DNA of 43,974 nt from a virus. A model generated the notes under the pieces. It had not been told where the DNA came from and searched no databases. It was given only the letters and a program-made list of their open reading frames with translations. Positions 2,832 to 33,236 of the stretch are shown here, in pieces (within the stretch, counting starts at the first letter, position 1; each line of letters opens with the position of its first letter). The translations under genes and the position numbers were made by a program. Where the stretch lies: positions 1-43,974 of IMG/VR virus record IMGVR_UViG_3300027898_000017; one strand, given 5' to 3'.

Positions 2832-2833
2832 TT

Positions 2834-3037
2834 ATGGCTACCACTCCTGCACCTAAATCGACTTCCGATAAAATCATTGATATCATTCATAATCTTATCA
2901 GTGGTGGAGGCAGTAATTCGGATGATGATCCTGTATCTCAAGCAATTACTGATGCATCTAATAACTCTCTCATCGGTGGTGGCTATCGTAGGGCACGCAT
3001 TGATGATGCAGAACAAAAATCTGTGAACGGAAATTAA
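2834..3037 (+). CDS. Small virion-operon protein, unknown
   Basis: 67 residues, unrecognised. It has a Lys/Asp/Ser-rich N-terminus, a poly-Gly stretch (SGGGSN) and a short C-terminal GGGYRRARIDDAEQ segment that could bind a partner. It starts 2 bases after the preceding stop and ends 1 base before the next ATG, so it is co-translated with the large internal virion proteins. By position it may be a small structural or assembly factor. Confidence that it is a gene is high because of the exact packing between neighbours. Confidence 0.65.
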   Translation: MATTPAPKSTSDKIIDIIHNLISGGGSNSDDDPVSQAITDASNNSLIGGGYRRARIDDAEQKSVNGN

Positions 3038-3038
3038 T

Positions 3039-12963: not shown

Positions 12964-13220
12964 AGTCCAAACCAAGGAGTTCCTGCGAGGGCATCATTTT
13001 TATTTACCTTTTTCAATCGTGGATATTTACCTGAGCGAGTTGGGATTTGTGCTCTTAGTTTTTCGTATGCATTAGAAGCTTCTTCAATTGTGTCGTATGT
13101 TCCTTGATAAGCTGATTTTCCTTTCACTGTGATTTTAACTATGTAACGAGTTTTTGCATTGTTTAAATATACGCCTCTTGGTAAACCTGATTTTTTATTG
13201 CTCTTAACTTTTCCTGTCAT
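12960..13220 (-). CDS. AP2-domain protein lacking a nuclease domain
   Basis: 86 residues from MTGKVKSNKK; this start overlaps the polymerase stop by ATGA. It consists of one AP2-like domain: GLPRGVYLNN, YIVKITVKGKSAYQGTY, then the helix EEASNAYEKL, plus a basic Lys-rich N-terminus and a short tail. No HNH residues are present. It may be a stand-alone DNA-binding protein or what remains of an HNH-AP2 endonuclease that lost its nuclease half. It is coupled to both the polymerase and the complete HNH-AP2 gene. Confidence 0.75.
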   Translation of the reverse strand: MTGKVKSNKKSGLPRGVYLNNAKTRYIVKITVKGKSAYQGTYDTIEEASNAYEKLRAQIPTRSGKYPRLKKVNKNDALAGTPWFGL

Positions 13221-15424
13221 AGTTCGCTCCAATATTTTCCGCCCATTTTAAGCGCCGCAGGTACTGTAAATGTTCTCTCAATACCTTTGATATCTTTAAT
13301 GAGTACGGGAATTTCCATAAGTTCTTTAACCTTAAGTGCCAAATCTTCCCGGCCGATTCTGTATTGGAATAAGATCGAATCGTGAATTTGAGCAAGGAGT
13401 TTAAAATCTTTCGGGTTGGGTAAGGCAACATTTAAGAACACTGATATAAATGCTTTGTTAAGCGTCATCGCATTTAGAGACTGAGGGCAGTGTGCAACAT
13501 ATGCGTTGAGTGCTTGCTTATTTTTGCTTGGATCTGAGAAACAGTACCGCGTCCAGCCAGTGGCACCTGTGAGTTTTTTACGCAGATTAACTTCTGTTCT
13601 AATCCAATCTTGATACCCAATTCTAACATCAGGGTAAGTAAGAGTAAACACAGAAAGCAAATGCTCAGCCACTTCACGCAACGTCCAGCGAGGATTAAGA
13701 TGAAGAAGTCTTTGCGCTTCCATAATTTTATCTTCTCCCATAGTGTCAATGAGGACTGACCATCCCATGTTATATGAAGCACCATGATTAACTCTTTTGG
13801 CGAGATCGCGTAACTTCTTATCGAGAGTCTTTCCAGTTGCGTCGTCGTAAATTGCTTCGTAAGGAATTCCAAAAAACGATGATGCATTAGTTGCGTGGAA
13901 ATCCTTCCCGGAGGAAACTGCGTGTATGAGGTTTTTATCTCCTGTAATATACGCTGTGTCGCGGGACTCAGCTTGTTCCAAGTCTGACTCACCAAGATAG
14001 AAACCATCGTCGGCACAGAGCGTTGACTTAACCGTAGGTCCTCTCGTGATATTCTGAATTTGTAATCCGCACCAGAAATGATGCTCTTTCGATGCGAGTC
14101 TACCTGTATCTGTTCCATGTGGATTGAGTGACCATAATATTCTTCCATTTAATTCTTTTCCTTCCACAAGGTAAGTTGATAAGAGTTTGCGATCTTTCTG
14201 AATATTGGATACTTGTTGTAATATTCGTGCGTTAAGAGGATGACGTAGGCGCGCCTTAGCAAGATTCTTTTCATCCGTTGCATCCAAGTCACCACACCCG
14301 AGAATTTTAAGTAATGCTTTCTTTTGTACTGGGCTGTTCGTATTAAACGACGGCACTCCCAACTCAGAAGAAAGTTTCTTATTCGCAGCTTCAACTTTCG
14401 CAGTAAATTTTTCATTTGATTCTTTTAATCGAATTAGGTCGCGCTTAATACCTGTAAGCTCAGCGAGTATGCATGGGAATAGAGTTGGAAACTCCATTTT
14501 ATAGTTAGTGTGAGCCCAAATGGGAGCTTCCGCGATCCAGCCAAGAAGAACCAAAGCGGTTTGATGAGTATCTTTAGCATTATATAAGTAGTATGTTTCG
14601 AGGTCATTTGTTTCCGCCAGATCTTTCCAATACATTGATTCTCGTACAAAGAATGCAGAGAGAGATGCCAGATCTTTTGGTAGCTCTGAGTACCAGCAAT
14701 GCATCAATGTAGCTGTATCCCATGCGTAGTTGTGGAGTATTAGTCCATAACGCATGAGATAATTTATATCGTACTTACCGTTTTGTAATATTTTTTGCGC
14801 GGGTAGAGATAGAAATTTCTGTGTGATTGCCAGAAAGAATTCTGACGTTAGCGGGATAACTGTTGATCGAGAAACGTAATGCCCATCGGTGAGAGTAAGA
14901 GAAGTAAAACCGATGCAACGGATTGCAAGATTTTCTTTGTAAGTCTCAATGTCAACAGACATAAGAATTGCATGAGAAGCGATTTCATATTCTCTTTCCC
15001 AATTGGTTTCATTTATTATAGCCCAAGAAAATTTCGGAGTGGCAGGCCATTTGTCTCGATATACAAGTTTAGATGTATAACGCTTAAGTAAGAATTCACC
15101 GTAAGGAACCGTAATCGTGTGCTCAAGAGGATGGACAATAACGTACTCGACACCGCCTTTCTCGAACAAAGAACCTGCAAAGTTGTCAACGGATGGCGCT
15201 TTTGGTGAGTCGGATTGAGGCAATAACTTAGATAGTAGTACGGAACTGGTTGTGATAACACCAGTGATCCCACGTTTTTCACAATATGATGTGACCTCAA
15301 ATAAGGTTTGAATGGGTTGAGTAGATAAGAATACTTTCGCCGAGCCGACACAACTTTTAAGTTTTGCCAAGAATGGTTTATCATCTGGTGTACCAAGAAA
15401 AAGAAGTGAGTCGTGATTAGACAA
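13217..15424 (-). CDS. polA-like: Family A DNA polymerase with 3'-5' exonuclease domain
   Basis: 735 residues, no 5'-3' exonuclease domain. Exonuclease motifs: VDIET (D158, E160), NGKYDINYL (D219) and YNAKD (D285). Polymerase motifs: HGTDTGRLAS (437-445); motif A DLEQAESR (D481, Q484, E486, R488); motif B R539-x3-K543-x3-H547-G548-x2-Y551-N552; motif C QIHDS (H681, D682). Two positions differ from the E. coli enzyme: the residue equal to Phe762 is His547, and the residue after the motif C Asp is Ser683 instead of Glu. It is the replicative enzyme of the phage. The N-terminal 130 residues resemble the leading region of other phage Pol A proteins. The start overlaps the upstream gene by 8 bases. 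Confidence 0.93.
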   Translation of the reverse strand: MSNHDSLLFLGTPDDKPFLAKLKSCVGSAKVFLSTQPIQTLFEVTSYCEKRGITGVITTSSVLLSKLLPQSDSPKAPSVDNFAGSLFEKGGVEYVIVHPLEHTITVPYGEFLLKRYTSKLVYRDKWPATPKFSWAIINETNWEREYEIASHAILMSVDIETYKENLAIRCIGFTSLTLTDGHYVSRSTVIPLTSEFFLAITQKFLSLPAQKILQNGKYDINYLMRYGLILHNYAWDTATLMHCWYSELPKDLASLSAFFVRESMYWKDLAETNDLETYYLYNAKDTHQTALVLLGWIAEAPIWAHTNYKMEFPTLFPCILAELTGIKRDLIRLKESNEKFTAKVEAANKKLSSELGVPSFNTNSPVQKKALLKILGCGDLDATDEKNLAKARLRHPLNARILQQVSNIQKDRKLLSTYLVEGKELNGRILWSLNPHGTDTGRLASKEHHFWCGLQIQNITRGPTVKSTLCADDGFYLGESDLEQAESRDTAYITGDKNLIHAVSSGKDFHATNASSFFGIPYEAIYDDATGKTLDKKLRDLAKRVNHGASYNMGWSVLIDTMGEDKIMEAQRLLHLNPRWTLREVAEHLLSVFTLTYPDVRIGYQDWIRTEVNLRKKLTGATGWTRYCFSDPSKNKQALNAYVAHCPQSLNAMTLNKAFISVFLNVALPNPKDFKLLAQIHDSILFQYRIGREDLALKVKELMEIPVLIKDIKGIERTFTVPAALKMGGKYWSEL

Positions 15425-19817: not shown

Positions 19818-20258
19818 TTAAATCTCATTCAGTACAGCAAATTCGCCTTGAATTTTTAAAGCGTGTTTGTTGTACTCTCTGGCTGCATCTTCAGCAGAGA
19901 CAAATGAACCTAGATGAATAGACACACCGTTAAAAGATATTTGAGCTATCCAACTTGTACCTTTACGAGATACGCCTTTATATCCAGATGTGTTAGATGG
20001 TTTTTTATCACAATTTTGTGTGTTTTGTTTTTTAGTTGTTTCTCGAAGATTGTCTCTTGTATTGTCTAATTTATCTCTGTTCTTATGGTCTACAACTAAA
20101 GCATCAGGTAATATAAGTTTATGCAAACGAATAGGTTTACCAGAAATATTGGTGCGAGGATAACCATTAGCATCTATATAAAATAGATACTTGTGCAAAA
20201 GATAATTATCTTCTGGAGAAACTAAAAAGCTTCTACGAATATTTTTAAAGTAATGCAT
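19818..20258 (-). CDS. HNH homing endonuclease with AP2 domain (second copy)
   Basis: 146 residues from MHYFKNIRR; an earlier in-frame ATG at 20294 is less likely. HNH core: RLHKLILPD, then LVVDHKNRDKLDNTRDNLR. AP2 domain: SGYKGVSRKG, WIAQISFNGVSIHLGSF, EDAAREYNKHAL. Both halves align with the gene at 12511-12963, and the C-termini share FAVLN(I/E)I endings, so the two are clear paralogues. Likely a mobile, self-spreading endonuclease whose target is an empty site in related phages. One of the two repeated dyad elements (20314-20341) lies 56 bases upstream. Confidence 0.88.
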   Translation of the reverse strand: MHYFKNIRRSFLVSPEDNYLLHKYLFYIDANGYPRTNISGKPIRLHKLILPDALVVDHKNRDKLDNTRDNLRETTKKQNTQNCDKKPSNTSGYKGVSRKGTSWIAQISFNGVSIHLGSFVSAEDAAREYNKHALKIQGEFAVLNEI

Positions 20259-20313
20259 ATCACAACACACTGAGAGGGAAATGGAAAGATACAATGTTTT
20301 CTGAAATGCGAAA

Positions 20314-20604: not shown

Positions 20605-20710
20605 TTTTTGAGCAGCCTTTATCAGGCCAAGTTTAAGCTCACCCGTGGGGGTTTGTAAGATAGTTACTGAATACCAGACAACTCAACATCGCCGTGTTGT
20701 AACTATCCTA
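20605..20710 (-). other. Structured intergenic leader upstream of the proline-rich gene
   Basis: No gene is seen here. On the minus strand several stems can form: GATAGTTAC with GTAACTATC (9 bp, enclosing CAACA/TGTTG), ACCC-CCAC-GGGT, and TGAGC with GCTCA around GCCT-GATAA-AGGC. The GCTCA segment could instead pair with TGAGC inside the downstream dyad element, so two exclusive folds are possible. No U-run follows, so it is not a simple terminator. It could be a leader RNA or small RNA; not matched to any known riboswitch. Confidence 0.4.
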
Positions 20711-21364
20711 TTACAGGCCCAGATTATCTTCCAGCGATTCTTCCTTAGCTTGAATCAGCTTATCTGCCTTCTTAAACAAGAAGTCGATAATTTCAGAAAA
20801 TTCCGATGCCTTCGGAGAATGTTCTGCGTACATAGACAAACGCAGCTTGAGCTTGGCGATAACATCTTTCTTAGACTTGATCGAAGCAAACTTGCCAGAG
20901 AAGATTTTCGCTGCATTTGCCGATTGTTCTTTCGACGTACCGGATACAGCAGGCATAACTTCGATATAATCGAGAGCAAAATCTTCCCAAGTTTCCTTGG
21001 TAATACCAGAGCGACGATCTTCTTTTTCCAGATTAGCAATTGCATTCCAGTCGCAAGTTGCATAATCAAAGTTTTCAGAAGTAATGCTTTCGTTTTCATT
21101 GATAACATCGCGTGCACGATCAATAACTACGTTAGCAACTGCTTCCAAAAGCAGATCAAGAGATTTTCCACCAGTTTCCAGAATTGCTACGATACCTTCG
21201 ACACTGGGAACAGGAAGTTTATCCAATTCGACAGTGGCTCGTTTCGTTTCAACTCCGGTTTCTTTGTCAGTTACCTTACGGAAACCAAACTTAGCGGACT
21301 TGTAATCAAACTTGTTGTCAAAGTTAACTGCGATTGCGGTGGAGGGAGATTGGGTTTCGGTCAT
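20711..21364 (-). CDS. Putative abundant DNA-binding (SSB-like) early protein
   Basis: 217 residues, Lys/Glu-rich, family not recognised. The N-terminal 100 residues look beta-rich, the rest helical, and the chain ends EESLEDNLGL, an acidic tail with a hydrophobic tip. The gene at 26465-27112 has the same plan and ends VSLDDALGL, so they may be distant paralogues. It has its own strong sigma70-like promoter (21432-21460), standing alone in the operon, which suggests high expression. An SSB-like or DNA-coating role is inferred, not shown; a recombination mediator is another possibility. Confidence 0.5.
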   Translation of the reverse strand: MTETQSPSTAIAVNFDNKFDYKSAKFGFRKVTDKETGVETKRATVELDKLPVPSVEGIVAILETGGKSLDLLLEAVANVVIDRARDVINENESITSENFDYATCDWNAIANLEKEDRRSGITKETWEDFALDYIEVMPAVSGTSKEQSANAAKIFSGKFASIKSKKDVIAKLKLRLSMYAEHSPKASEFSEIIDFLFKKADKLIQAKEESLEDNLGL

Positions 21365-21431
21365 ATAAATTCCAAAAATGAAAGATTAAAGAGAACAATT
21401 TACGCTCGAATTAATTTGGGAGCGAGGTTGA

Positions 21432-21460
21432 AGTATGGCATAACTTAGGGGCTGTGTCAA
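21432..21460 (-). promoter_or_regulatory. Sigma70-like promoter for the 217-residue gene
   Basis: Minus-strand -35 TTGACA (21460-21455, perfect) and -10 CATACT (21437-21432, 4 of 6), spacer 17 bases. It lies in the gap between 21479 and the gene start at 21364. Plus-strand GGGG and CCCC blocks flank the -35 box and could form a small hairpin. Confidence 0.65.
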
Positions 21461-21478: not shown

Positions 21479-21721
21479 TTATCTCGCCCAGACAGGTTTT
21501 GTTAAGATTTGTACTCTTGGCGAACCGTCCAGCTCAGCTTTAACAGTTACTAAATAATCTCCTATTTCTACTGCTATTGATTCTCCATTACGAATTTCCA
21601 AAAACATATGATCTATATCATTATCTATTAGAGCTGGAATCGAAGGTCTTTTAGTACCAGAATATCTACGATTACGGGCCTCTTCAAATGTTTCACGACG
21701 AAAGAAGTTAAGATTTTTCAT
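21479..21721 (-). CDS. Hypothetical early protein
   Basis: 80 residues, unrecognised. The N-terminus is basic and aromatic (NLNFFRRETFEEARNRRYSG), the C-terminal half beta-type (SIAVEIGDYLVTVKAELDG). It is coupled to the SF1 helicase gene by ATGA. It is the last gene before the 114-base gap holding the promoter at 21432-21460. Confidence 0.6.
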   Translation of the reverse strand: MKNLNFFRRETFEEARNRRYSGTKRPSIPALIDNDIDHMFLEIRNGESIAVEIGDYLVTVKAELDGSPRVQILTKPVWAR

Positions 21722-23424
21722 GATTGCATATCTCCTTTATCTAATTTACCTTTGAAATACTCTGCTTTTTCTAGCAAAGTGTTACCTTTGATTCGCTGTG
21801 ATTTGACTGCATTGGTGAATGTATCTGCTTCGCATATTACAAATAATTCTTTCTTGGCGCGAGTAACTGCGGTGTAGAGAAGTTCGCGTTGCATCATAGT
21901 TGCATGAGAATTGTGGAATAGGAGAAATACTTTATCCCATTCAGAACCTTGTGATTTATGAACAGTGAGAGCATATCCGAGAATTAGGGCATTTACTTCT
22001 GCTGCTTTGGTAATTGTCTTTTCTGTGTCAGAATCCATCATTCGCAATTTAATATGATGCGATGATTGAGTTACTCTATCTTCGTCAGAGTCGGATGCGG
22101 ATACTTGGGCGAGAAGGAAATCAATATCTTCGCCGGATTCTGATTCGTTAATTGTTCGATCATGGTTCTTAGGTTCATTATTATGTCCCCAATAATCCAA
22201 ATAGGTTGATTCTCGTTGCGGAGAAACTCCAGTATAAGTTGGGTTGGGATATATATCGAGAATGATTGCATCTTCTCGATCGTATAGCACTTTATCTCCA
22301 ACAGAGAAGTAATGTTTGATAAATCCAGAAACAACTTCCCATGTAACGAGTTCTTTCTTTCTTGCAAGATGGTTGGCAATTGATTTGTTAATTTCAAGTG
22401 TTCCATAAGATTTATTAAATGGTATGAGGATAATGTCATTTTCGGGGTCATATTCACCTCGCTCATATAAAGTATCGAATAGTTTTTCGGAAACTGATAG
22501 GGCTGCTTCTGCTTCTATTTTCTTTTTCCACGGTTTAATTGTTAGATTAGGTACATTCCAATTAGGTAATTCTTCTGGTGAAATTGGTTTACCTGATAGG
22601 ATTCGATGGGCAAGTCGGATGATAGGAGATTCGAGAGCTTGACGATATACTTCAGTTAATTCGATTGTAGGAAGTTCTGAGAGTTTAAATCCGAGAATTG
22701 CGGGCCCGAATACAGGAGGTAACTGTTGAATATCTCCCAGAAATATGATTTGAATGTTTGGATTCTGAATCGAATCTATAACTTCATTGTATAGCGGTGT
22801 ACTAATCATAGATGATTCTTCAAATATGATTGTAGTTATCTCAGATGGCAAAGGATTAGATGCATTACGCATTGGTACGAATCGCATTGATGTTTTCTCA
22901 TTACCATTATCGTCGATTACTGTGAAATATTCGGGGCCATATTCCAGAAGTTTATGGATTGTAATGCAATTGGCTTTCATTGATTCATCCATATTTCGAC
23001 GAATATTATTTGTAGCCCGACGCGTATATGCACAAACTACAATTCCGGGCGCACCATTAGGAAGATGCTTATGATCGTGATTCTGAAGGATACCTGTTTT
23101 AGATGACTGAGTTAGAGATTGTACAGTACCCTTCATGCAAGTTGTTTTACCAGTACCTGCTGCACCGATTAGACAACATGATTTATGCGTAGATGCAAGA
23201 TCAATGAATGATTGTTGTGCACTGTTATATGTAATCGAGTTACCATATTTATCAGTGACTGATGTATTTTCGCGTAATTTTGATGGTGCAGGAGCTAATT
23301 CTGGAGAAAATAGCGGCGATGATTCTTGCGTAGGTTCGGCAATTGGCTGAGATTTTGCAGCTTCTGCTTTTAATCTTGCAGCGGCGATGATTGCTGCAAA
23401 TCGAGATGGTGATATTGTAGACAT
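21718..23424 (-). CDS. SF1B DNA helicase, RecD/Dda-like
   Basis: 568 residues. Motifs in order: Q-like YNSAQQSFI, P-loop GAAGTGKT (87-94), Walker B IIFEESSM, motif III FLGDIQQLPPV, motif V LTVHKSQGSEWDKVFL and motif VI YTAVTRAKKELFVI. This is the full set for a 5'-3' SF1B helicase of the RecD2/Dda/Pif1 type. The first 55 residues are Ala/Pro/Ser-rich and likely flexible. Probable roles are replication restart, strand displacement or recombination. The stop overlaps the gene downstream by ATGA and the start shares a base with the stop of the gene upstream. Confidence 0.92.
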   Translation of the reverse strand: MSTISPSRFAAIIAAARLKAEAAKSQPIAEPTQESSPLFSPELAPAPSKLRENTSVTDKYGNSITYNSAQQSFIDLASTHKSCCLIGAAGTGKTTCMKGTVQSLTQSSKTGILQNHDHKHLPNGAPGIVVCAYTRRATNNIRRNMDESMKANCITIHKLLEYGPEYFTVIDDNGNEKTSMRFVPMRNASNPLPSEITTIIFEESSMISTPLYNEVIDSIQNPNIQIIFLGDIQQLPPVFGPAILGFKLSELPTIELTEVYRQALESPIIRLAHRILSGKPISPEELPNWNVPNLTIKPWKKKIEAEAALSVSEKLFDTLYERGEYDPENDIILIPFNKSYGTLEINKSIANHLARKKELVTWEVVSGFIKHYFSVGDKVLYDREDAIILDIYPNPTYTGVSPQRESTYLDYWGHNNEPKNHDRTINESESGEDIDFLLAQVSASDSDEDRVTQSSHHIKLRMMDSDTEKTITKAAEVNALILGYALTVHKSQGSEWDKVFLLFHNSHATMMQRELLYTAVTRAKKELFVICEADTFTNAVKSQRIKGNTLLEKAEYFKGKLDKGDMQS

Positions 23425-24455
23425 TATATACTTTCAGATTGCGATGAAGATTCAGATGATTGGAGAATTTTGTAATTCGATGCAATATTCCATCTTGCTT
23501 TCGCTTTGATATATTCGATAAGCGATGGATACTGATTGCGTTGCGGTTCGGATGATGGCGCAGTATCTATCATATTTTGTATGTTAGCATCTTCAGCGGA
23601 TTCTGATGGTTTGAGAATACGATAAGATGTGATAGATGATCTAGATAGGTCAACGTCGCCAAGGCCGAGATAATTCTTTTGCATCTCCGCACCTTTGCGT
23701 AAATATCGCATGAGTGCAATTGCATAGATAGAACCATCGCCGACAATGTTATCTTCGCAATGATCTATTAGTTCACGTAAATCATTCTCTGGCACTTGGA
23801 AAATTGATTCGGCTTTCGCACATTTGATAATGATTGATTCCCAATAATCTGCCAATTCTGTTTTAACTCCGCGAATCGTAACATTGAATGTCGGAAAATC
23901 GCCTGCCATTCTCGCCCATGCTGCAAGAATTTTAGGATAATCTTCGATATTTTTATGCGAAGATTTAATTAGTTTTTGTAATCCTGCTTCACGACGTTGC
24001 AATTCTTGATCGTTCGCATGATCTTTTATGTTATCTGCCCAATCATTATAATTCTGAATCCAAAGTTGAATCCAATGATATGAATTTTCGAGATTGCAAG
24101 TATCGGGAGATATTACAAAATGCGGGAGAACGAATGACGGATGTTTGATTATATCTATTTTGCCTACGATATGGATTAATTGTTCCATATTATTTGCAAT
24201 GATAGAATTGGTTTTAGAATGATAAGTTGCAGGCACTCGCCATTCAATTAATCCGGTGCTATGAAGCAAACTCAAATAGGTAAGATATGATTCAGTTGGT
24301 GTAAGTTTGCCCGCTGCCCAAATACCTGCAAGAGATATAAGTTTCTTTTTAGATACATGAAATAATGGATGAGTTACTTCACGCGAAGATATCGCAAAGG
24401 GTAGATGCTCGCAAGCAAATTCGATTGAAGAATATGCGCATATGATTTTAGCCAT
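23424..24455 (-). CDS. Hypothetical early protein beside SF1 helicase
   Basis: 343 residues, no known motif found. Mainly helical, Trp-rich (WRVPATYHS, WIQLWIQNYNDW, WARMAG), with a polar Ser/Gln tail. It starts 3 bases after the upstream stop and its own stop shares a base with the helicase start. By size and place it could be a helicase loader, initiator or primase-associated protein, but no motif supports any one of these. It deserves a structure-based comparison. Confidence 0.7.
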   Translation of the reverse strand: MAKIICAYSSIEFACEHLPFAISSREVTHPLFHVSKKKLISLAGIWAAGKLTPTESYLTYLSLLHSTGLIEWRVPATYHSKTNSIIANNMEQLIHIVGKIDIIKHPSFVLPHFVISPDTCNLENSYHWIQLWIQNYNDWADNIKDHANDQELQRREAGLQKLIKSSHKNIEDYPKILAAWARMAGDFPTFNVTIRGVKTELADYWESIIIKCAKAESIFQVPENDLRELIDHCEDNIVGDGSIYAIALMRYLRKGAEMQKNYLGLGDVDLSRSSITSYRILKPSESAEDANIQNMIDTAPSSEPQRNQYPSLIEYIKAKARWNIASNYKILQSSESSSQSESI

Positions 24456-24458
24456 GGA

Positions 24459-24749
24459 TTATACTCCGAGAATTTTAGATTCATAATCCATTTCTTCTTG
24501 CGCACTCATCAATCCATTCTCATATCTTTCGCGCTCTGATTTCTCTTGATTCTTTATAAGTTGAATTTCAGAGATTTTATATGCTGGATTGATTGCACCA
24601 ACTTCGATTTTTGCTAGAATTGGAATCAATACTTTGCGTATTGAAATATCTTCTGGTGATTCTGTTATCCCAGTTAGATTTACAATGTGTTTAATTTGCG
24701 CCAGAGTTAATACTGGTCGAAATTTCACAAGAGAATGATTGACTGACAT
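24459..24749 (-). CDS. Hypothetical early protein
   Basis: 96 residues from MSVNHSLVKF, chosen because this ATG follows the upstream stop by 1 base; a longer frame begins 9 codons earlier inside that gene. Helical with a charged C-terminal half (IQLIKNQEKSERERYENGL). No family recognised. Confidence 0.6.
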   Translation of the reverse strand: MSVNHSLVKFRPVLTLAQIKHIVNLTGITESPEDISIRKVLIPILAKIEVGAINPAYKISEIQLIKNQEKSERERYENGLMSAQEEMDYESKILGV

Positions 24750-24750
24750 T

Positions 24751-24960
24751 TTAGATTTCTCCATTAATAGCTGCAAGAAGCAGACAAAAGTAAATTGATT
24801 GTTCGGATCTTATGCCTTTAAATGAATTTTCAGGATAATACCACGGCATATAATAATTACACCAATCTTCAGTAGTCATAACTAATGAGTATGGAATATT
24901 ATGCACTGCATTAAAACAAGCTATTGCAGTTTTTAGATAAGAATGATTTAATCTATCCAC
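24751..24960 (-). CDS. Small early protein, aromatic-rich
   Basis: 69 residues, unrecognised. Unusually rich in Tyr and Trp (WCNYYMPWYYPENSF) with a hydrophobic helix at the end (SIYFCLLLAAI). It starts 3 bases after the stop of the gene before it. One of a run of six tiny genes (24459-25711) at the front of the early block. Confidence 0.6.
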   Translation of the reverse strand: MDRLNHSYLKTAIACFNAVHNIPYSLVMTTEDWCNYYMPWYYPENSFKGIRSEQSIYFCLLLAAINGEI

Positions 24961-25591: not shown

Positions 25592-25711
25592 TTAAAATCC
25601 CAATCCATTCAGAATCTCCACAAAGCGAAAATAACTTAGTGGTGCCAGATGTTGTCTAATCATTTTCGCTTTATGCACATTGTATAGATAAATCATTTGA
25701 GATGCAGACAT
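25592..25711 (-). CDS. Tiny early protein
   Basis: 39 residues, read directly from the minus strand: MSASQMIYLYNVHKAKMIRQ start and a hydrophobic end (FRFVEILNGLGF). GCGAGAA lies about 9 bases upstream. It is the first gene of the early string after the repeat-rich region and 11 bases before the next gene. No homology recognised. Confidence 0.55.
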   Translation of the reverse strand: MSASQMIYLYNVHKAKMIRQHLAPLSYFRFVEILNGLGF

Positions 25712-25747: not shown

Positions 25748-25774
25748 TTATATTCTCAGGATTTAAGAATATAA
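25748..25774. promoter_or_regulatory. 9-bp inverted repeat before the early small-gene operon
   Basis: TTATATTCT (25748-25756) and AGAATATAA (25766-25774) form a perfect inverted repeat with a 9-base centre, 37 bases upstream of the 39-residue gene. It overlaps AT-rich sequence with TATAAA on the minus strand that could be the promoter -10. It may be an operator or a hairpin at the start of the transcript. Confidence 0.6.
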
Positions 25775-25802
25775 GAAAACAATCTCAAGGTTTGGCACGC
25801 CA

Positions 25803-25826
25803 GCCAGAATGCCAGAATGCCAGAAT
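25803..25826. repeat. Three tandem 8-bp iterons GCCAGAAT
   Basis: Three perfect head-to-tail copies of GCCAGAAT, followed by GCCAAACC. The array is bounded by TTTGGCA (25791-25797) and TGCCAAA (25826-25832), an inverted pair. Confidence 0.9.
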
Positions 25827-26009
25827 GCCAAACCCTTGTCAAGGGGGTCATCGGCATAGGTGATACGACCACTAATATAGATTGTGTGCATTATAGATTG
25901 TATGATAGTGCATGATAGTGTATGTTATGCGTGAGTGAATAGGGTTATGTTCCATATCTTACGGTCATTCTGAGGGGTATCAAAATAATTAAATATAAAA
26001 TATAATAGT

Positions 26010-26079
26010 ACTTATATTAGATATCCTACATACATACATTCTAGGTTATATGTGTGGTGATAAGGTATCTAATATAAGT
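26010..26079. repeat. 14-bp perfect inverted repeat
   Basis: ACTTATATTAGATA (26010-26023) and TATCTAATATAAGT (26066-26079) are exact reverse complements with a 42-base centre; two more inner pairs can form. It sits between the AT-rich segment and the second iteron array. Confidence 0.9.
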
Positions 26080-26119
26080 GCCGGATGCACCTATGGCACG
26101 AGGGGGTCAAAGGGCCATC

Positions 26120-26148
26120 TGGCATTCTGGCAGATTGGCAGATTGGCA
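26120..26148. repeat. Second iteron array, opposite orientation
   Basis: Units ATTCTGGC (26124-26131), AGATTGGC (26132-26139) and AGATTGGC (26140-26147) are head to tail. ATTCTGGC is the reverse complement of the GCCAGAAT unit of the first array, so the two arrays face each other across the AT-rich segment. Confidence 0.85.
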
Positions 26149-26188
26149 TTGTGTCACGCCAGCCAAAATGCCAGAACCCGTAGTTATA

Positions 26189-26362
26189 TTAAAAGTATAG
26201 GACAAGAAAAACAATTTCATTTTCTTGAAAATAGTACACTTTGCCATTGGATGTATAAGGTGAATTAATAAGCCGTGCAGTCCGTGAGGATGTTTTAATC
26301 CATGAATTGCCATTGCAATAGAATGTGTAATATAAACCAATATCGCAAAAACGATGGGACAT
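26189..26362 (-). CDS. Small early protein with NGN-W-K-SSRTA motif
   Basis: 57 residues, read from the minus strand. The order YYTFYCNGNSWIKTSSRTARLI, here split as FYCNGNSW and IKTSSRTARL, followed by KVYYFQENEIV looks like a small all-beta fold. I recall similar short proteins (NGN, then K-SSRTA) in other tailed phages, without known function. GGAG lies 9 bases upstream of the ATG. It lies between the candidate origin (downstream) and the 215-residue early gene. A TTG-started frame over the same DNA (26107-26382) is judged a shadow. Confidence 0.65.
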   Translation of the reverse strand: MSHRFCDIGLYYTFYCNGNSWIKTSSRTARLINSPYTSNGKVYYFQENEIVFLVLYF

Positions 26363-26464
26363 AATTCAATTCTCCAATCCAATCAAAATCATATCTGGGT
26401 AAAATCACCCATTAATGACACTGAAATTAATCAATGTCATCTAGTGTAATTCTATTTTACAATC

Positions 26465-27112
26465 TTACAATCCAAGTGCGTCATCCAAACTCACCTCATT
26501 AAGAACCTTATCAATGCGCCCCTGAAAACGCACAAGCGTTGCATCCGGTGATTCTATCAATTTAAATGCCTTATCAATTGCAACTGCTTTGGCGCGCGCA
26601 ATAGTCCCACGAGATGAGAATGTATCGGCAATGAGTTTCTTATATGCATTGAGCGACGCTTGCCATTTCGCGTCATCAAAACCTTTGGCGATCAATGCAA
26701 TTCCAATCGGTTCTGCCAATGTGTCATCAAACCACGATGCAATGCGCGCAGCGTCCCATTTATCGCCCGTTGCATCAGTGTTAATGTAATCAATGATCGC
26801 GGCCATTCCAATTTGATCCGTCGATACTTCGCGCTGGCCGGATTTAATCCGATCGGCAACTATCTTATTTTGTATCGTCTGGAAATATTCTGTAGCTGCA
26901 TCTCGCACGCTAGACAAGCCCCAGTCAATATCTGCGCGGCCAAGAATCGGCACTGATGTGGCCATCGTTTGTTGCAAATGCGGACCATAGTTTCCGTCTT
27001 TATCGGCTTTGGCGATTGTGACAACCAGACGCTGACCATTCTGCGCTACTGTTTTATTTGCGCCTTTGGCTTCATAGACAATTGCAGTGTGGATATTGGA
27101 AATAACGGACAT
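26465..27112 (-). CDS. First early gene; possible SSB-like paralogue
   Basis: 215 residues from MSVISNIHT; the ATG two codons earlier is closer than ideal to the AAAGGA ribosome site, while this one has 9-base spacing. N-terminal beta-type half (RLVVTIAKADKDGNYGP), then helices, ending NEVSLDDALGL. The gene at 20711-21364 shares the beta-then-helix plan, a VxxR(I/A)-x-SGQ/NEN region before a (S/I)TxxQ/ENF turn, and the acidic LGL end. It has the best promoter of the early block directly upstream. Unknown function; ssDNA binding or an early host-directed role are candidates. Confidence 0.65.
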   Translation of the reverse strand: MSVISNIHTAIVYEAKGANKTVAQNGQRLVVTIAKADKDGNYGPHLQQTMATSVPILGRADIDWGLSSVRDAATEYFQTIQNKIVADRIKSGQREVSTDQIGMAAIIDYINTDATGDKWDAARIASWFDDTLAEPIGIALIAKGFDDAKWQASLNAYKKLIADTFSSRGTIARAKAVAIDKAFKLIESPDATLVRFQGRIDKVLNEVSLDDALGL

Positions 27113-27165
27113 TTTCATTTTCCTTTAAGTTAATTAATTAGCTAAGTATGTGCGCCAGTATCGGC

Positions 27166-27193
27166 ACTATATATATTGCAAGCCCCATGCCAA
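27166..27193 (-). promoter_or_regulatory. Sigma70-like early promoter
   Basis: Minus-strand -35 TTGGCA (27193-27188, 5 of 6) and -10 TATAGT (27171-27166, 5 of 6) with a 16-base spacer. It lies 54 bases upstream of the 215-residue gene and should start the whole minus block. Confidence 0.7.
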
Positions 27194-27220
27194 CTATTTA
27201 TCTATTTTCACCCTCATATT

Positions 27221-27302
27221 TTATTCACAATCAAAACCCTTATAAATCAACAACTTACCTGTGTTATCCACAATCTATTCACAATGTTATACATTATCCA
27301 CA
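27221..27302 (+). promoter_or_regulatory. Cluster of DnaA boxes
   Basis: Matches to TTATNCACA: TTATTCACA (27221-27229, perfect), TTATCCACA (27264-27272, perfect), CTATTCACA (27275-27283, 8 of 9) and TTATCCACA (27294-27302, perfect). A reverse one, TGTGGATAT (27474-27482), matches 8 of 9, and another perfect box lies at 27966-27974 inside the first late gene. The density, within A/T-rich DNA, suggests host DnaA binding and possibly a replication origin. Confidence 0.7.
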
Positions 27303-27392
27303 AGCGCAGTCTGCACCAAAATGCGTAATTCCTGCACCAATATCATGCAAAATGCGCCATTTGTGTGCATCGGTGCAATAAAACAACACTTC

Positions 27393-27452
27393 TCATATCA
27401 CATCATAAAATCACCTATTTTCATATCACATCGTGAAATAACTTGCCTATTT
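27393..27452. repeat. TCATATCACATC direct repeats
   Basis: Two tandem units start with TCATATCACATC and end CCTATTT (27393-27420 and 27421-27452). A weaker third relative (TTTCATATTATC) follows at about 27460. Iteron-like, next to the DnaA boxes. Confidence 0.7.
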
Positions 27453-27520
27453 CGTGTGCATTTCATATTATCTTGTGGATATCTCATATTGTGAAATTTA
27501 CGCGATTGTGTGTGATTGTG

Positions 27521-27532
27521 TGCGCTAGCGCA
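27521..27532. promoter_or_regulatory. 12-bp perfect palindrome
   Basis: TGCGCTAGCGCA is self-complementary and lies 19 bases upstream of the plus-strand TATAAT. Position and symmetry fit an operator, but no phage regulator gene was recognised to bind it. Confidence 0.45.
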
Positions 27533-27629
27533 TGTGGTGACATCGGGTTTTATAATGTGGTACAGTTTTAACTAAATCAATTTTATTTATTTAATCGCAC
27601 ATTCTAGGCCATTCTAGGCCAATCCCACT

Positions 27630-27833
27630 ATGTTAGTTGGCACTCACTTCGCGTATCACATGCCACATATGTTAGCGCTTACTTCGCAATTCTCCATGTT
27701 AGTTAGTACTCACTTCGCATTTTTAGATGAGAATGAGAATCATTCTCATTTAGATTTAAAATCGGAGGTGGGTAAGGGCCTTTTTAATTCTGTGCGCGCG
27801 GGTTTTCCTATGACGATTCCCCCAATTTTCTAA
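27630..27833 (+). CDS. Doubtful small gene with in-frame MLVxTHFA repeats
   Basis: 67 residues if translated. Three DNA repeats (27630-27652, 27669-27687, 27696-27718) of the form ATGTTAG...ACTTCGC are spaced by 39 and 27 bases, so all stay in one frame: MLVGTHFA, MLALTSQF and MLVSTHFA. The rest (DENENHSHLDLKSEVGKG) is moderately protein-like. There is no clear ribosome site before the first ATG. The Fur-box palindrome lies inside the frame. It may be a leader peptide, an acquired fragment, or just noncoding repeats. Confidence 0.3.
   Translation: MLVGTHFAYHMPHMLALTSQFSMLVSTHFAFLDENENHSHLDLKSEVGKGLFNSVRAGFPMTIPPIF
27732..27750. promoter_or_regulatory. Fur box (iron-uptake regulator operator)
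   Basis: AATGAGAATCATTCTCATT is a perfect 9-1-9 inverted repeat. The 19-base window beginning three bases earlier, at 27729, agrees at 16 of 19 positions with the classic Fur consensus (GATAATGATAATCATTATC). It lies 195 bases upstream of TerS in the control region. Binding by host Fur is inferred. Confidence 0.65.
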
Positions 27834-27944
27834 AAAATTTTAAATCATCCATCCAATCTCACAACTTTCACGCCAATTGGTATCCCCAACATCACAATAC
27901 TCCCGATCCCACTAATATTATCACATCTCCCCGCAAAAATCATC

Positions 27945-28514
27945 ATGGCCACCACAGCATCCACATTATCCACAGAAGAACGAGCACTTACACTATTAGG
28001 GCAAGGTGTTCCACCCACCGCAGTTGCAAATGCACTCGGTGTAGATGTGTCTCGCATATCACAATTACTCGCAGATGAGTCATTTGCAATTAAAGTTGTT
28101 GAAAAGAAATTCGAATCGTTATCTAAACACAATGAGCGCGACGATAAAATAGATAACATCGAAGATAAACTCATAAAAAAGCTGGAAGATTGTCTTCCAT
28201 TTATGACTCGTCCGATGGAAATACTTAAATCGTTCTCAGTAATTAATGCTGCAAAACGCAGAGGACAAACTGCCCCCGAATCTCTCACCACAAAACAAAC
28301 TATCATTCAACTTAATATTCCACAAATCGTACTTAACAAGTTTCAAACTAATATTCATAATCAAGTTGTGCAAGTAGGCGAACAAACTCTAGTTACTATT
28401 CCATCGGCTCAAATGTTAAAACTTTCGGAGGCCAAAGATGCTTCCCTCACCCTCGAAAACCAATATGACCCAAGTACAATTGGAACAAAAGCGACTACAG
28501 GTCGAAATGAATAA
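27945..28514 (+). CDS. terS: Terminase small subunit
   Basis: 189 residues. An N-terminal helix-turn-helix is visible (LGQGVPPTAVANALGVDVSRISQLLAD, in pieces PPTAVANALGV and SRISQLL), followed by a charged coiled-coil segment (EKKFESLSKHNERDDKIDNI) for ring assembly and a beta-type C-terminus. It is the first late gene and directly precedes TerL, so it should recognise the packaging site and feed DNA to TerL. The ribosome site is weak. A DnaA box (27966-27974) lies in its first codons. The 3' end overlaps a small gene. Confidence 0.8.
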   Translation: MATTASTLSTEERALTLLGQGVPPTAVANALGVDVSRISQLLADESFAIKVVEKKFESLSKHNERDDKIDNIEDKLIKKLEDCLPFMTRPMEILKSFSVINAAKRRGQTAPESLTTKQTIIQLNIPQIVLNKFQTNIHNQVVQVGEQTLVTIPSAQMLKLSEAKDASLTLENQYDPSTIGTKATTGRNE

Positions 28515-28602
28515 GCAAGCAGCCCAGAAATTACTTCTCGGATTGCGCGCCCAATTATCTCGCAATCGAGTTTCTTCAATCCAATTGTCTGATTCTAAAT
28601 GA
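28438..28602 (+). CDS. Small helical protein between TerS and TerL
   Basis: 54 residues, read in a frame inside the TerS 3' end. A strong GGAGG ribosome site lies 8 bases before the ATG, and its stop overlaps the TerL start by ATGA. The chain is a long basic Gln/Lys-rich helix (TQVQLEQKRLQVEMNKQAAQ, then a LLLGLRAQL patch). It may help TerS-TerL assembly or couple translation of TerL; unknown family. It explains the otherwise empty gap between the terminase genes. Confidence 0.75.
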   Translation: MLPSPSKTNMTQVQLEQKRLQVEMNKQAAQKLLLGLRAQLSRNRVSSIQLSDSK

Positions 28603-30152
28603 ATCCGCCGCCAAATACAGAATCGAATCTTTTTACCCAAGAAGATATAGAGCCAATCGCCGAAGTGGAGGAAAGTTCTCGCCCGGAAATTCCCGAAACT
28701 GCATTCCAAATAGATCAAGTACAAGAATCGGCCCGTAATTCTCTCGATTTTCTCGCAGCACTCGCAACTCCAGAAACTTTTCGCTATTTATTTCCACCAG
28801 TATATCAATCAATTTGGTCTTGGCTTCTCCAATACGTATCTAAAAATCGAGACTTCTCCCAATTAGCACTCGGACTTCCTCGAGGATTTGCAAAAACTTC
28901 TCTCGTAAAATTATTTCTTCTCTACTGCATTCTTTTCACTCGGCGCAAATTTATTCTTGTGATGGCGGAAAATACCACCAAAGCAATCAATATTATTTCC
29001 GATGTTATGGATATGCTCTCCGAACCTAATATCAGAAAAGTATTCGGAGATTGGAGAATTGGCATTGAGACAGATCGACAAGATCTAAAGAAATTCGGCT
29101 TTCGAGGTCGCAATGTTATTGTGATGGCCGGCACAGTCGAAACTATTCGAGGCATAACATTAAAAAATGTGCGCCCCGATGTTATGGTATTCGACGACAT
29201 ACAATCTCGCCAAATGGCCGATTCTGGCCCAGTTTCTGATGCGCTCGAAAGAGAAATGTACGGAACTGCGATGAAATCTAAATCACCTGAAGGCTGTCTA
29301 TTTATTTTTGTGGGTAATATGTATCCCACAAAATACTCGATTTTGCGCCACCTAAAAACTAATCCTAATTGGGTTAAATTTATTGCAGGCGGAATTCTTG
29401 CAGATGGCACTTCTCTCTGGGAAGAATTGCAGCCAATAGAACAACTTTATCGAGAATTTCAAAATGACTTACTTGCAGGCCACCCAGAAATTTTCTATGC
29501 AGAAGTTCTAAATGATGAAAATGCATCAGTAAATAACACGATCGACACATCTAAAATACCTCAATATCCATACCAAGACAATGATATTCCCGGCGGTAAA
29601 TTCTTAATGATTGACCCCGCAGGAGATAAAGCTACATCAGACGCAGTTTCAATTGGTTATTTCGAAATACATAACGCATATCCAGTATTACGAAAAGTAG
29701 TAGAAGGTAGAATGTCCCCAGGTGATATAATACGAGAAGCTCTTAAAATGGCTTTAACTCACGGTGTGTCTGTAATTGCCATTGAGTCCAATGCGTATCA
29801 ATACTCTCTGCTCTATTGGTTTAATTTTATAACTGCCCAAATGGGTATTATAGGAATCGAGCCAGTAGAAATTTATTCCGGATCGCAAAATAAGAATTCT
29901 CGTATTTTGCAAATGTTTCTACAACTTCTAAAAGGCGAAGTGTGGGTTCATCCTGATTGTGTTCCAGCTACATACTTACAAATAGCACAATTCAATCCGC
30001 TTAAACGAGACAATGTTGACGGAATTTTGGACTTACTAACTTATGCATCGAAAGTGATAGAAATGTATCAGCACCAAATTGTCTCATCCAATGTAATAAA
30101 TGAGCAAGAATACTCTAAATCAGAGGTTCTTGAATTTAATTCTCCATTCTGA
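28599..30152 (+). CDS. terL: Terminase large subunit (packaging ATPase-nuclease)
   Basis: 517 residues. Variant P-loop PRGFAKTS (94-101) and Walker B VMVFDD (195-200) form the motor. The C-terminal nuclease has FLMIDPAGDKATSDAVS (D339), VIAIESN (E396) and DNVDGILDLL (D474/D478). This is the RNase H-fold metal site of TerL. It pumps genomic DNA into the prohead through the portal and cuts it. Walker B ends in Asp-Asp-Ile instead of the commoner Asp-Glu, which occurs in podovirus terminases. An N-terminal acidic stretch of 35 residues precedes the motor. Confidence 0.93.
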   Translation: MNPPPNTESNLFTQEDIEPIAEVEESSRPEIPETAFQIDQVQESARNSLDFLAALATPETFRYLFPPVYQSIWSWLLQYVSKNRDFSQLALGLPRGFAKTSLVKLFLLYCILFTRRKFILVMAENTTKAINIISDVMDMLSEPNIRKVFGDWRIGIETDRQDLKKFGFRGRNVIVMAGTVETIRGITLKNVRPDVMVFDDIQSRQMADSGPVSDALEREMYGTAMKSKSPEGCLFIFVGNMYPTKYSILRHLKTNPNWVKFIAGGILADGTSLWEELQPIEQLYREFQNDLLAGHPEIFYAEVLNDENASVNNTIDTSKIPQYPYQDNDIPGGKFLMIDPAGDKATSDAVSIGYFEIHNAYPVLRKVVEGRMSPGDIIREALKMALTHGVSVIAIESNAYQYSLLYWFNFITAQMGIIGIEPVEIYSGSQNKNSRILQMFLQLLKGEVWVHPDCVPATYLQIAQFNPLKRDNVDGILDLLTYASKVIEMYQHQIVSSNVINEQEYSKSEVLEFNSPF

Positions 30153-30160
30153 AAGCGCGC

Positions 30161-32281
30161 ATGGCTACTAATACTCCGATGATTTTAGGCAAAACCCAAC
30201 AGGCCGGCCTAATAGAATTCTCGAAACAAGCATACAATATGCTTAATACTTCTTGGAATATTCGAGAACAAATGCGTAAGATCGACCTCGCATATATTCG
30301 AGAAGTCGATTGGACTGCGGAACATCAAAAATCCAAGCTAGCTAATCGTTATGGTGATTCGAATAAATTCCAAAACATCACCATGCCAGTTGTTCTTCCC
30401 GCAGTGGAAGCAGCTGTAACTTATCAAACTTCTGTTTTCTTAACTGGCTCTCCAATATTCGGAGTTGCAGGAAATGCAGAGATGGAAGATTCTGCGCTTC
30501 AGATGGAAGCACTAATGGAAGATCACCAGCGTCGTGGTGGTTGGACTCGTCATTTGCAAATGTTTTTTCGAGATGGATTTAAATACAATCTCGCAGCAGT
30601 CGAAGTAGATTGGACTGACCAAGTTGTCGCAGCATTAGATACAGATCCCACATACGCACAAGGTAAACAAGGAAAACCGCGAGAAGTTATCTGGTCTGGC
30701 AATCGTATTCGCCGACTCGATCCATACAATGTTATTTTTGATTTTCGCATTCCAGTTACAGAAGTATCTGAAAAAGGTGAATTTGCAGGGTATACGGAAC
30801 TTATGTCTCGTATGGCCCTCAAAATGTTTATTGCACAAATTCCCAACAAAGTTGTAGATAATATTGCAGCCGCATTTGCTTCCGGACTTGGCGGCGGCGG
30901 AATTAACACATCTTCTGTATCTTCGTATTATCTTCCCCCAATCAATCAAGATGCACTAATTAATCTCAATGTGCGACAGGGTACAGATTGGATGGCATGG
31001 GCATCTGCATCGCAAGTCTCATCGAAAATAGATTACAAAAACGTATATGAAGTAACAACTTTATACGGTCGGATTATTCCATCTGATTTCGGGCTGCGAG
31101 TTCCTGCACCTAATACTCCGCAAGTGTGGAAATTTATCATTGTTAACCATCAGGTAATAATCTATGCAGAACGGCAAACCAATGCACATAATCGCATTCC
31201 TATTCTCTTTGGTTCTCCACTCGAAGATGGACTATCTTTCCAAACTAAGTCTCTTGCCCAAAACGTACAAGGAATACAAGATGTTTCATCTGCAATGATG
31301 AACTCTGTAATTGCAGCACGTCGACGAGCAATATCTGACCGAGGACTGTATGATCCATCACGAGTGGGAGAAGCACAAATTAACAGTGATAACCCGTCAG
31401 CTAAAATTCCTGTTCGCCCAGCAGCGTATGGTAAACCACTCAATGAAGCATACTTCCCGATACCATTTAGAGACGATCAATCTGGTACTATCATGCAGGA
31501 AATGGGTGCAGTTATTAAATTGTCCGACGTCATCACAGGACAAAACCCAGCACGACAAGGACAATTTGTAAAAGGAAATAAGACCCAAACTGAGTATTCA
31601 GATGTGATGAATAACTCAAATGGTCGTGACCAAGGTACTGCAATCCTTCTCGAAGATCAAGTATTTACTCCGCTGAAAGAAATACTTAAACTTAACATTC
31701 TGCAATACCAAGGCCCCACATCAGTATACTATTCGAGCAAACAACAACAAGTTGCAATCGACCCAGTTGTTCTCCGAAATGCAGTCATATCATTCAAAGT
31801 ATCTGATGGTCTCTCACCCACATCTAAACTAATTGCAGGTGATGCATTTCAGACAGCTTTGCAGGTAATTGGATCTTCGCCGCAAATTGGATCTTCGTAC
31901 AATATGGCATCTTTGTTTTCGTATCTTATGGAAACTCAGGGCGCACATATTAAAGACTTCGAAAAATCTAATGAACAAGTTGCTTATGAATCTGCAATGC
32001 AACAGTGGACTCAGATGGCGCAAGCATCCATTCAAGCAGGCCAACCGTGGAATACTCCACAACCGTTGCCGGCTCAATTTGGTTATCTCCAGAATGGACA
32101 ATTAGTGCAACAAGATCAGACTCCAGATCCATTGCAATCTTTCTTGTCTACGATTCGCCAGAATACTCAAGCATTGCAACAAAACACTAATCAATTGGAT
32201 CAGGTGGGCCAAGTATCTCCGGGAGCACAAGGCCAATCAGTTTCTCAACCGCAAGCACAACAAAATGGCACACCAAGTTAA
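30161..32281 (+). CDS. Portal protein
   Basis: 706 residues, directly after TerL, the usual portal size for podoviruses. Recognisable parts: an N-terminal NITMPVVLPAVEAAVTYQTSVFLTGSP-type segment (in pieces MPVVLPAVEAAVTYQT, SVFLTGSP), a middle with ARRRAISDRGLYDP, and a helical C-terminus rich in Gln (for example QNTQALQQNTNQLDQ) likely forming the barrel. It forms the dodecameric ring at one vertex for DNA entry and exit. No named family was verified, but position and composition leave little doubt. Confidence 0.85.
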   Translation: MATNTPMILGKTQQAGLIEFSKQAYNMLNTSWNIREQMRKIDLAYIREVDWTAEHQKSKLANRYGDSNKFQNITMPVVLPAVEAAVTYQTSVFLTGSPIFGVAGNAEMEDSALQMEALMEDHQRRGGWTRHLQMFFRDGFKYNLAAVEVDWTDQVVAALDTDPTYAQGKQGKPREVIWSGNRIRRLDPYNVIFDFRIPVTEVSEKGEFAGYTELMSRMALKMFIAQIPNKVVDNIAAAFASGLGGGGINTSSVSSYYLPPINQDALINLNVRQGTDWMAWASASQVSSKIDYKNVYEVTTLYGRIIPSDFGLRVPAPNTPQVWKFIIVNHQVIIYAERQTNAHNRIPILFGSPLEDGLSFQTKSLAQNVQGIQDVSSAMMNSVIAARRRAISDRGLYDPSRVGEAQINSDNPSAKIPVRPAAYGKPLNEAYFPIPFRDDQSGTIMQEMGAVIKLSDVITGQNPARQGQFVKGNKTQTEYSDVMNNSNGRDQGTAILLEDQVFTPLKEILKLNILQYQGPTSVYYSSKQQQVAIDPVVLRNAVISFKVSDGLSPTSKLIAGDAFQTALQVIGSSPQIGSSYNMASLFSYLMETQGAHIKDFEKSNEQVAYESAMQQWTQMAQASIQAGQPWNTPQPLPAQFGYLQNGQLVQQDQTPDPLQSFLSTIRQNTQALQQNTNQLDQVGQVSPGAQGQSVSQPQAQQNGTPS

Positions 32282-32528
32282 TTCGACATTTACGCGTTAT
32301 AAGTTAAGTCCAGAAGAACAAGAATCTGGACAATCACTTACAACTGCAAACTTATATGTGATTCAAAATCTTATCTGTGATGCGGCTGAAGAAAAGCTAT
32401 CACTTGCATATGATCCATTGAATCCTATCGCATTCGCGCAAAGAGAAGCAGAACTCCAAGGTCAAATTGGTGTTCTAAAACTCTTAGTCGAATTGGCTTC
32501 TGCCAGCAACATCACCCTCTCTAATTAA
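32265..32528 (+). CDS. Small head-operon protein
   Basis: 87 residues, overlapping the portal end by 17 bases. Helical: LSPEEQESGQSLTTANLYVIQN, then a C-terminal helix (GQIGVLKLLVELA). Such short conserved proteins between portal and scaffold are common in podoviruses and of unknown function; a head-assembly role is inferred. Confidence 0.7.
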   Translation: MAHQVNSTFTRYKLSPEEQESGQSLTTANLYVIQNLICDAAEEKLSLAYDPLNPIAFAQREAELQGQIGVLKLLVELASASNITLSN

Positions 32529-32537
32529 GGAAATTTT

Positions 32538-33236
32538 ATGTCTTTCGTATCTCGCATTTTTGGAACTACTTCGCAATATGATGGCGCACCGCAACAAAAT
32601 GCGCCTCAACAACAAACTCCGGCAGCACCTGCACCAGCAGCAACTCCGGCAACTCCTACTGAACCTGCATCCCCACTCGATCAATTTAAGACTTTGTGGG
32701 AACCTGTGAACACTCCTGGAGTTGACAACACGCTTCCAGCTAATATGTTTGCAGGCGCCGATCCTGCTAAAATGTTGGAAGCTGCTCGTAAAGTTAATTT
32801 TGCTGCACAAGTTCCCGCTGATGTTCTCGCTAAGATTACCGCAGGTGGGCCTGATGCAGCAGCAGCTTTTGCACAAGCAATCAATGATGTTGCTCAAAGG
32901 TCGTACGCTCAATCGTCATTCGCATCAACTAAAATAGTTGAAGCTGCTTTGGCAAAATTTCAAGAAGGACTGGATTCCCGGCTCCCTTCGCAAGTTAAGA
33001 GATTCCAAGTCTCTGAATCCCTCCGCGAATCTAATCCAGCACTTACCCATCCTGCAGCTGCTCCGATTATGGAAGCACTGCAATCTCAATTGACAGTAAA
33101 GTATCCTAATGCTTCTGTTAATGAGATTCGTGATATGGCTTCCCAATATCTCTCGCAATTCGGAACTGCAATGGCACCTCCCAAACCTGCTAATGCTGTA
33201 CCTGTTTCGGAAGATTGGGATAAATTCTTTGCGTAA
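32538..33236 (+). CDS. Scaffolding-like protein
   Basis: 232 residues. An Ala/Pro/Gln-rich disordered N-terminus (residues 20-48), helical Ala-rich middle, and a C-terminus VPVSEDWDKFFA, an acidic-aromatic tip often found on scaffolds that bind the capsid shell. It lies between portal and the capsid genes, where the scaffold is expected. AAGGAAATTTT precedes the ATG. A head-associated minor protein remains possible. Confidence 0.65.
   Translation: MSFVSRIFGTTSQYDGAPQQNAPQQQTPAAPAPAATPATPTEPASPLDQFKTLWEPVNTPGVDNTLPANMFAGADPAKMLEAARKVNFAAQVPADVLAKITAGGPDAAAAFAQAINDVAQRSYAQSSFASTKIVEAALAKFQEGLDSRLPSQVKRFQVSESLRESNPALTHPAAAPIMEALQSQLTVKYPNASVNEIRDMASQYLSQFGTAMAPPKPANAVPVSEDWDKFFA

Follow-up and report, generated by a model that had tools for sequence, protein, structure and literature searches.

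Facing arrays of octamer iterons in uncultured podovirus-like phages and their probable role as a replication origin

Replication origins in which two iteron sets flank A/T-rich DNA are known from the phage-inducible chromosomal islands (PICI), including the Staphylococcus aureus pathogenicity islands (SaPI), for which the iteron sequences have been listed element by element (PMC6092414, PMC7581432), and the published view is that only phage satellites have this two-sided layout (PMC6092414). Herein, a comparable site is described in the IMG/VR virus record IMGVR_UViG_3300027898_000017, whose 43,974 nt are termed the window, where positions 25793-26176 most probably constitute the theta-type (bidirectional) replication origin of a circularly mapping, podovirus-like phage. 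Two hallmarks of an iteron origin, an array of short direct repeats and an adjacent A/T-rich unwinding region, are found in this segment. If this assignment is true, the two-sided iteron layout also occurs in complete phages.

The PICI/SaPI origin appears to be the closest known layout, as in both cases two iteron sets flank an A/T-rich region. However, the satellite origin directly follows the 3' end of rep, the gene of the initiator helicase, while the phage site lies 3' of a gene for a 217-aa protein that matches no helicase or Rep family and no known fold. For this reason, the phage site is likened to the PICI origin in its working and is not classed as one. Moreover, PICI and SaPI are satellites without capsid genes of their own, whereas the window represents a complete tailed phage with its own terminase, portal and capsid genes, and the phage family is set apart by a near-constant 8-bp pitch and possibly also by the mutual facing of its two sets. 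The lambda origin is also a phage origin near replication genes in which an iteron array adjoins A/T-rich DNA, but its iterons are 19-bp inverted repeats, which are confined to one flank of the A/T-rich DNA and form part of the initiator gene O (PMC5043065). The iteron plasmids (P1, F, RK2) likewise combine replicon-specific short repeats with A/T-rich DNA, and as a rule the spacing of their iterons keeps helical phase (PMC5043065), in contrast with the two facing sets found here, whose 8-bp pitch is out of helix phase.

The left array (25793-25833, + strand) reads TGGCAcgccaGCCAGAAT GCCAGAAT GCCAGAAT followed by GCCA, with the core TGCCA-N3, which is kept in relatives. Exact copies of GCCAGAAT start at 25803, 25811 and 25819 (+) with a pitch of 8 bp; three units on this side had been recognized in a first, sequence-only reading of this DNA. 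That reading had also described three reverse-facing units on the other side, which is correct for the core, as the right array (26120-26148, - strand) carries TGGCA-N3 four times, at 26120, 26128, 26136 and 26144, but not for the octamer, since the first unit alone is an exact reverse GCCAGAAT while the second and third are TGGCAGAT. The exact octamer GCCAGAAT occurs six times in the window against an expectation of 1.74, a number reached by none of 100 shuffles, and 40 Markov-generated counterparts of the window yielded no facing arrays of such strength (at least five units).

Between the arrays, a TTGTCAA element (25836-25842, +) is located within CCCTTGTCAAGGG, just inside the left array. 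It is followed by the conserved core TCTTACGGTCATTCTGAGGGGTATCAAAATAATTA (25957-25991, +), delimited by the alignment of relatives, in which a G/C run is succeeded by AAAAT-rich DNA and which is probably the melting site. The A/T-rich centre (25980-26065) is a candidate DNA-unwinding element, in keeping with the A/T peak over 48 loci. A perfect 14-bp inverted repeat with a 42-base centre, noticed at the outset, is indeed present, its left arm ACTTATATTAGATA at 26010-26023 and its right arm TATCTAATATAAGT at 26066-26079 (both given on the + strand); it is the only one in the window at a loop of 60 bases or less, and 20 shuffles of the window gave no comparable one, while in some relatives the arms are altered on both sides. 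Outside the right array stands an outer element, TGTCACGCCAGCCAAAATGCCAGAA (26152-26176, +), a near-copy of 25796-25817 with similar TGTCAC..CCA sequences in relatives. The 22-base direct repeat that had been assigned to 25796 and 26155 is therefore present, although its copies agree at 21 of 22 positions and are not fully identical. The whole interval is intergenic, as a conserved 39-aa open reading frame (ORF) stops at 25711 and the next gene, which encodes the 217-aa protein, occupies 26465-27118, and the small ORFs within it show no conservation, which bears out the early remark that no gene explains it; Rfam and tRNA searches gave no match.

The layout is not peculiar to the window. A search with the 343-aa protein encoded beside the array (23424-24455, -), which served as the marker for finding relatives, yielded 78 loci, of which 76 were distinct and were tested with a blind detector that accepted any pitch from 7 to 10, the regions downstream of the 343-aa gene serving as controls. 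Facing arrays were detected upstream of this gene in 48 of the 76 loci and in none of the controls, and several of the non-matching loci end too near the gene to include the site. The pitch was 8 bp in 39 of the 48 loci, 7 bp in four, 9 bp in four and 10 bp in one, and the spacing between the facing arrays ranged from 242 to 432 bp. The repeat words themselves vary widely (TGCCA, TGCCT, AGACTG/AGACCG, TATCC, TTGAC, TTAAC, ATCAT and others). A few of the 48 detections are probably due to chance, the doubtful ones being L139 (TTTCA at 10 bp), L114, L115, L149 and L119, in which the detector picked TGTAT rather than the TTAAC pair. In addition, 38 of the 48 loci have GTCAA no more than 90 bp from the left array (1.9 expected from shuffles), 28 have a G/C run with AAA[AT]TT between the arrays (0.8 expected), and the A/T fraction is highest, at 0.75, halfway from one array to the other. 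This retention of the layout while the repeat letters change suggests an origin with an ever-changing recognition code.

Closer relatives reveal the same plan in finer detail. The 20-mer GCCAGAATGCCAGAATGCCA matches nine IMG/VR contigs, mostly terminase relatives, and in A-type relatives facing TGCCA-N3 arrays occupy the same place, adjoining the 217-aa gene and 1.6-3.3 kb upstream of terL, which encodes the large terminase; the disappearance of the arrays from close relatives, which had been named as a refuting outcome, is thus not seen in those that cover the site. Their aligned common plan runs TGGCAcgccAaCCAnnnTGCCAnnnTGCCA, TGTCAA, TTACGGT, TAGGGGTATCAAAATTTA, the inverted repeat and finally CTGGCATTCTGGCATTCTGGCATTGTGTCAC. 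In more distant relatives, which lack exact TGCCA arrays, the layout is retained with degenerate TGCCA units in G009, with TTAAC units at a 7-bp pitch in G010/G011 and with TGACTGTG units at an 8-bp pitch in G013. The proximity to terL would also suit a site for packaging (pac) or for recombination next to the terminase genes, but the site is separated from terS by the 217-aa gene and by a long stretch of intergenic DNA, and such a function leaves unexplained both the melting core and the gradient of strand composition described below, so that this explanation is held to be extremely improbable.

Further repeat runs were observed in relatives. In L018/L023 (G016), seven consecutive TGCCAGAA-type units (+) lie beside a right array that is degenerate, so that the array seems to have been extended there beyond the facing pair. 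In L012 (G010), the stretch 2655-3200 between the 217-aa gene and terS holds the tandem repeats CTGGTGAT (four copies), CGCAGGCCAT (three) and CAAGTTAT (four).

Strand composition provides a second line of evidence for a bidirectional origin. A turn of the cumulative GC skew had been proposed as a check, and it is found at the array or within about 1 kb of it in most of the complete genomes (G000, G006, G014, G015, G016 and G009), while in G013 it is displaced by 1.1 kb. At fourfold sites, the skew on the + strand drops abruptly here, from roughly +0.4 to -0.4, and declines to zero near the antipode, and in 16 of 18 genome arms the sense skew within each gene orientation becomes weaker farther from the array. 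The non-coding DNA from the 217-aa gene (p217) stop to the array is mildly C-rich (24 of 33, p = 0.011), and that from the p217 start to terS is strongly C-rich (33 of 36), all composition tests being made regardless of shared ancestry. On both arms, the synonymous sites of the presumed leading and coding strands are rich in C (window 26001-33000 and relatives). A switch with two-sided decay supports a bidirectional origin, as the decay is what a fixed starting point would give. The alternative that forks starting elsewhere meet here, at a replication terminus with facing fork traps, would bring the sign of the skew into line with the bacterial rule. The decay argues against it, since a second sharp switch would then be expected, whereas the sole sharp synonymous-skew switch lies here and the far side fades through zero without another. 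Moreover, nearly all genes would be transcribed against the forks, and a terminus does not account for the A/T-rich core with its conserved motif; a terminus is accordingly rated as very unlikely.

Several observations weigh against the assignment of the origin to this site. The skew of G011 is flat, and the raw skew of G017 is opposite in sign, although at fourfold sites this genome conforms to the rest. As mentioned, the skew reverses the bacterial rule, under which the leading strand is G-rich. A fourfold-skew test on p217 (51 of 54 loci) was dropped as proof of a switch at the array rather than at the gene divergence because it is confounded, the left-side p217 paralog (20711-21364, -) being also G-rich in many relatives; the raw-skew turn is confounded in the same way. 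The paired fourfold-skew difference between p217 and the left paralog is not significant (p = 0.07), and therefore the skew places the switch only within a 2-kb interval that includes the array, and it does not tell the array apart from the region of gene divergence, which begins 1-2 kb farther right. Finally, no known initiator family or fold was matched among the neighbouring proteins, so the expectation of an unrecognised initiator stands.

The bidirectional origin nevertheless remains the favoured explanation, which is further supported by the replication genes in the operon to the left. Initiation may be pictured as follows. A phage-encoded initiator would bind the two facing arrays of 8-bp iterons and bend or loop the roughly 300 bp between them, the A/T-rich core would melt next to the G/C run and AAAATT motif, and the phage replisome (primase/helicase, family A polymerase and Dda-like helicase) would be loaded in both directions. 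The first reading had named a large operator as the alternative to an origin. Facing arrays also suit looping in a large operator or promoter, where a phage repressor would bind both of them and control the leftward early operon, in whose leader the site is located. The A/T-rich core with its conserved G/C-run and AAAATT motif and the switch of strand composition at this place with its decay over distance are not predicted by such an operator, which is considered unlikely as a sole function. Iteron initiators often autoregulate, and an operator may therefore hold alongside the origin.

Regarding the initiator itself, the 343-aa and 217-aa proteins were considered and set aside: their AlphaFold models (moderate confidence) matched no fold in the PDB, nor did their sequences match the PDB or, convincingly, PHROGs. 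A weak lead is the 105-aa protein (p105; KFRPVLTxxQI...) encoded at 24459-24776 (-), a candidate iteron-binding protein. When covariation with the repeat class was scored, p105 and the helicase gave the highest pooled residuals, and p105 alone also separates the distant TGCCA loci from the B-type (AGAC-type) loci. In all four TGCCA loci outside the main clade, the 105-aa proteins are nearer to those of the TGCCA clade than to those of AGAC-type phages, a difference that most other proteins do not display. The 105-aa tree requires the minimum number of repeat-class changes, as does that of terS with fewer taxa, but in the B-type loci L087/L140 the 105-aa proteins do not follow the repeat class. 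Tentatively, and with considerably less assurance than the origin itself, an undescribed class of phage origin might be envisaged, in which facing octamer arrays of constant 8-bp pitch are read by a small protein of a family not yet described, perhaps the 105-aa protein, and the word has repeatedly been rewritten from one related phage to another with no change of pitch, spacing or core; the word might then act as an incompatibility code among phages that co-infect a cell or persist as episomes. If the origin is real, the family would offer a natural series in which recognition sequences have changed many times at fixed geometry, and hence material for studying the co-evolution of initiators and iterons.

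No isolated phage has a near DNA match to the window. Its large terminase (TerL) shares about 32-34% identity (about 33%) with those of Jamesmcgillvirus (Fredfastierviridae), Polaromonas phage Tiera, Aeromonas phage P5 and EBPR podovirus 3, its PolA shares about 28-35% with those of Fredfastierviridae members, Tiera, EBPR3 and P5, and the gene order is the same. The genus Jamesmcgillvirus (PaMx41, PaP2) resembles the window in genome plan and in homologous TerL, helicase, exonuclease and PolA, although homologs of the 343-, 217- and 105-aa proteins were not detectable there. At the matching intergenic position of the cultured P. aeruginosa phage PaMx41 (L074, 43352-43720), facing CAAGGT repeats about 315 bp apart surround GGGGGTTAAAAAATT, with similar arrangements in PaP2 and FBPa48, but their pitch of 10 bp is irregular, and they escape a stricter detector that requires three units on each side. 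A literature search found no description of an origin for these phages or for Jamesmcgillvirus. The proposed origin would give a large lineage of uncultured phages, among whose relatives the cultured phages of P. aeruginosa may be counted, a sharply delimited origin without a known initiator.

The Jamesmcgillvirus phage Shea persists as an episome (PMC13348215), and a plasmid-like origin is therefore plausible in the wider group. Episomal life in this distantly related genus would also suit a partition centromere, at which small DNA-binding proteins coat short tandem repeats and segregate the episomal phage. Centromere arrays consist of short unspaced tandem repeats, and the repeats of the window look alike. 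No ParA/ParM/TubZ-like gene was found among the scanned ORFs, which did not comprise every small ORF; moreover, a centromere needs no melting core and leaves the skew unexplained, and it is given very little credence here.

Among bacterial matches to the 20-mer GCCAGAATGCCAGAATGCCA, phage genes are present only on L038 (JAJCYU010000427.1, 42,938 bp), from a metagenome-assembled genome of Anaerolineae, which carries the 343-, 217- and 105-aa genes, the helicase, terS and TGCCA arrays. A second match was not found among 396 Anaerolineae genomes, and this hint is not taken to identify the host.

The surroundings of the site are divided by orientation. To the right, on the + strand, lie the terminase, portal and capsid genes, while the left side (- strand) encodes the DUF3987 primase/helicase (10773-12023), the family A polymerase PolA (13217-15424), Sak4, an exonuclease and the Dda-like/RecD-like helicase of the leftward replication operon (21718-23424). 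The 217-aa gene (26465-27118, -) ends with its stop close to the right side of the array; in most loci, 11-700 bp, and often 80-130 bp, lie between this stop and the start of the array. G006, G011 and G014 display 127-bp end overlaps, and the contigs open at different points of one gene order; the overlaps are consistent with circular maps.

Two minor observations concern the left side. The minus-strand 217-aa ORF at 20711-21364 is an apparent paralog of the 217-aa gene, and the longer plus-strand ORF at 20645-21448 is therefore read as its shadow and not as a gene. Close by, an HNH endonuclease gene (19818-20294, -), a homing-type candidate, has a related ORF in G006 and is missing from most relatives.
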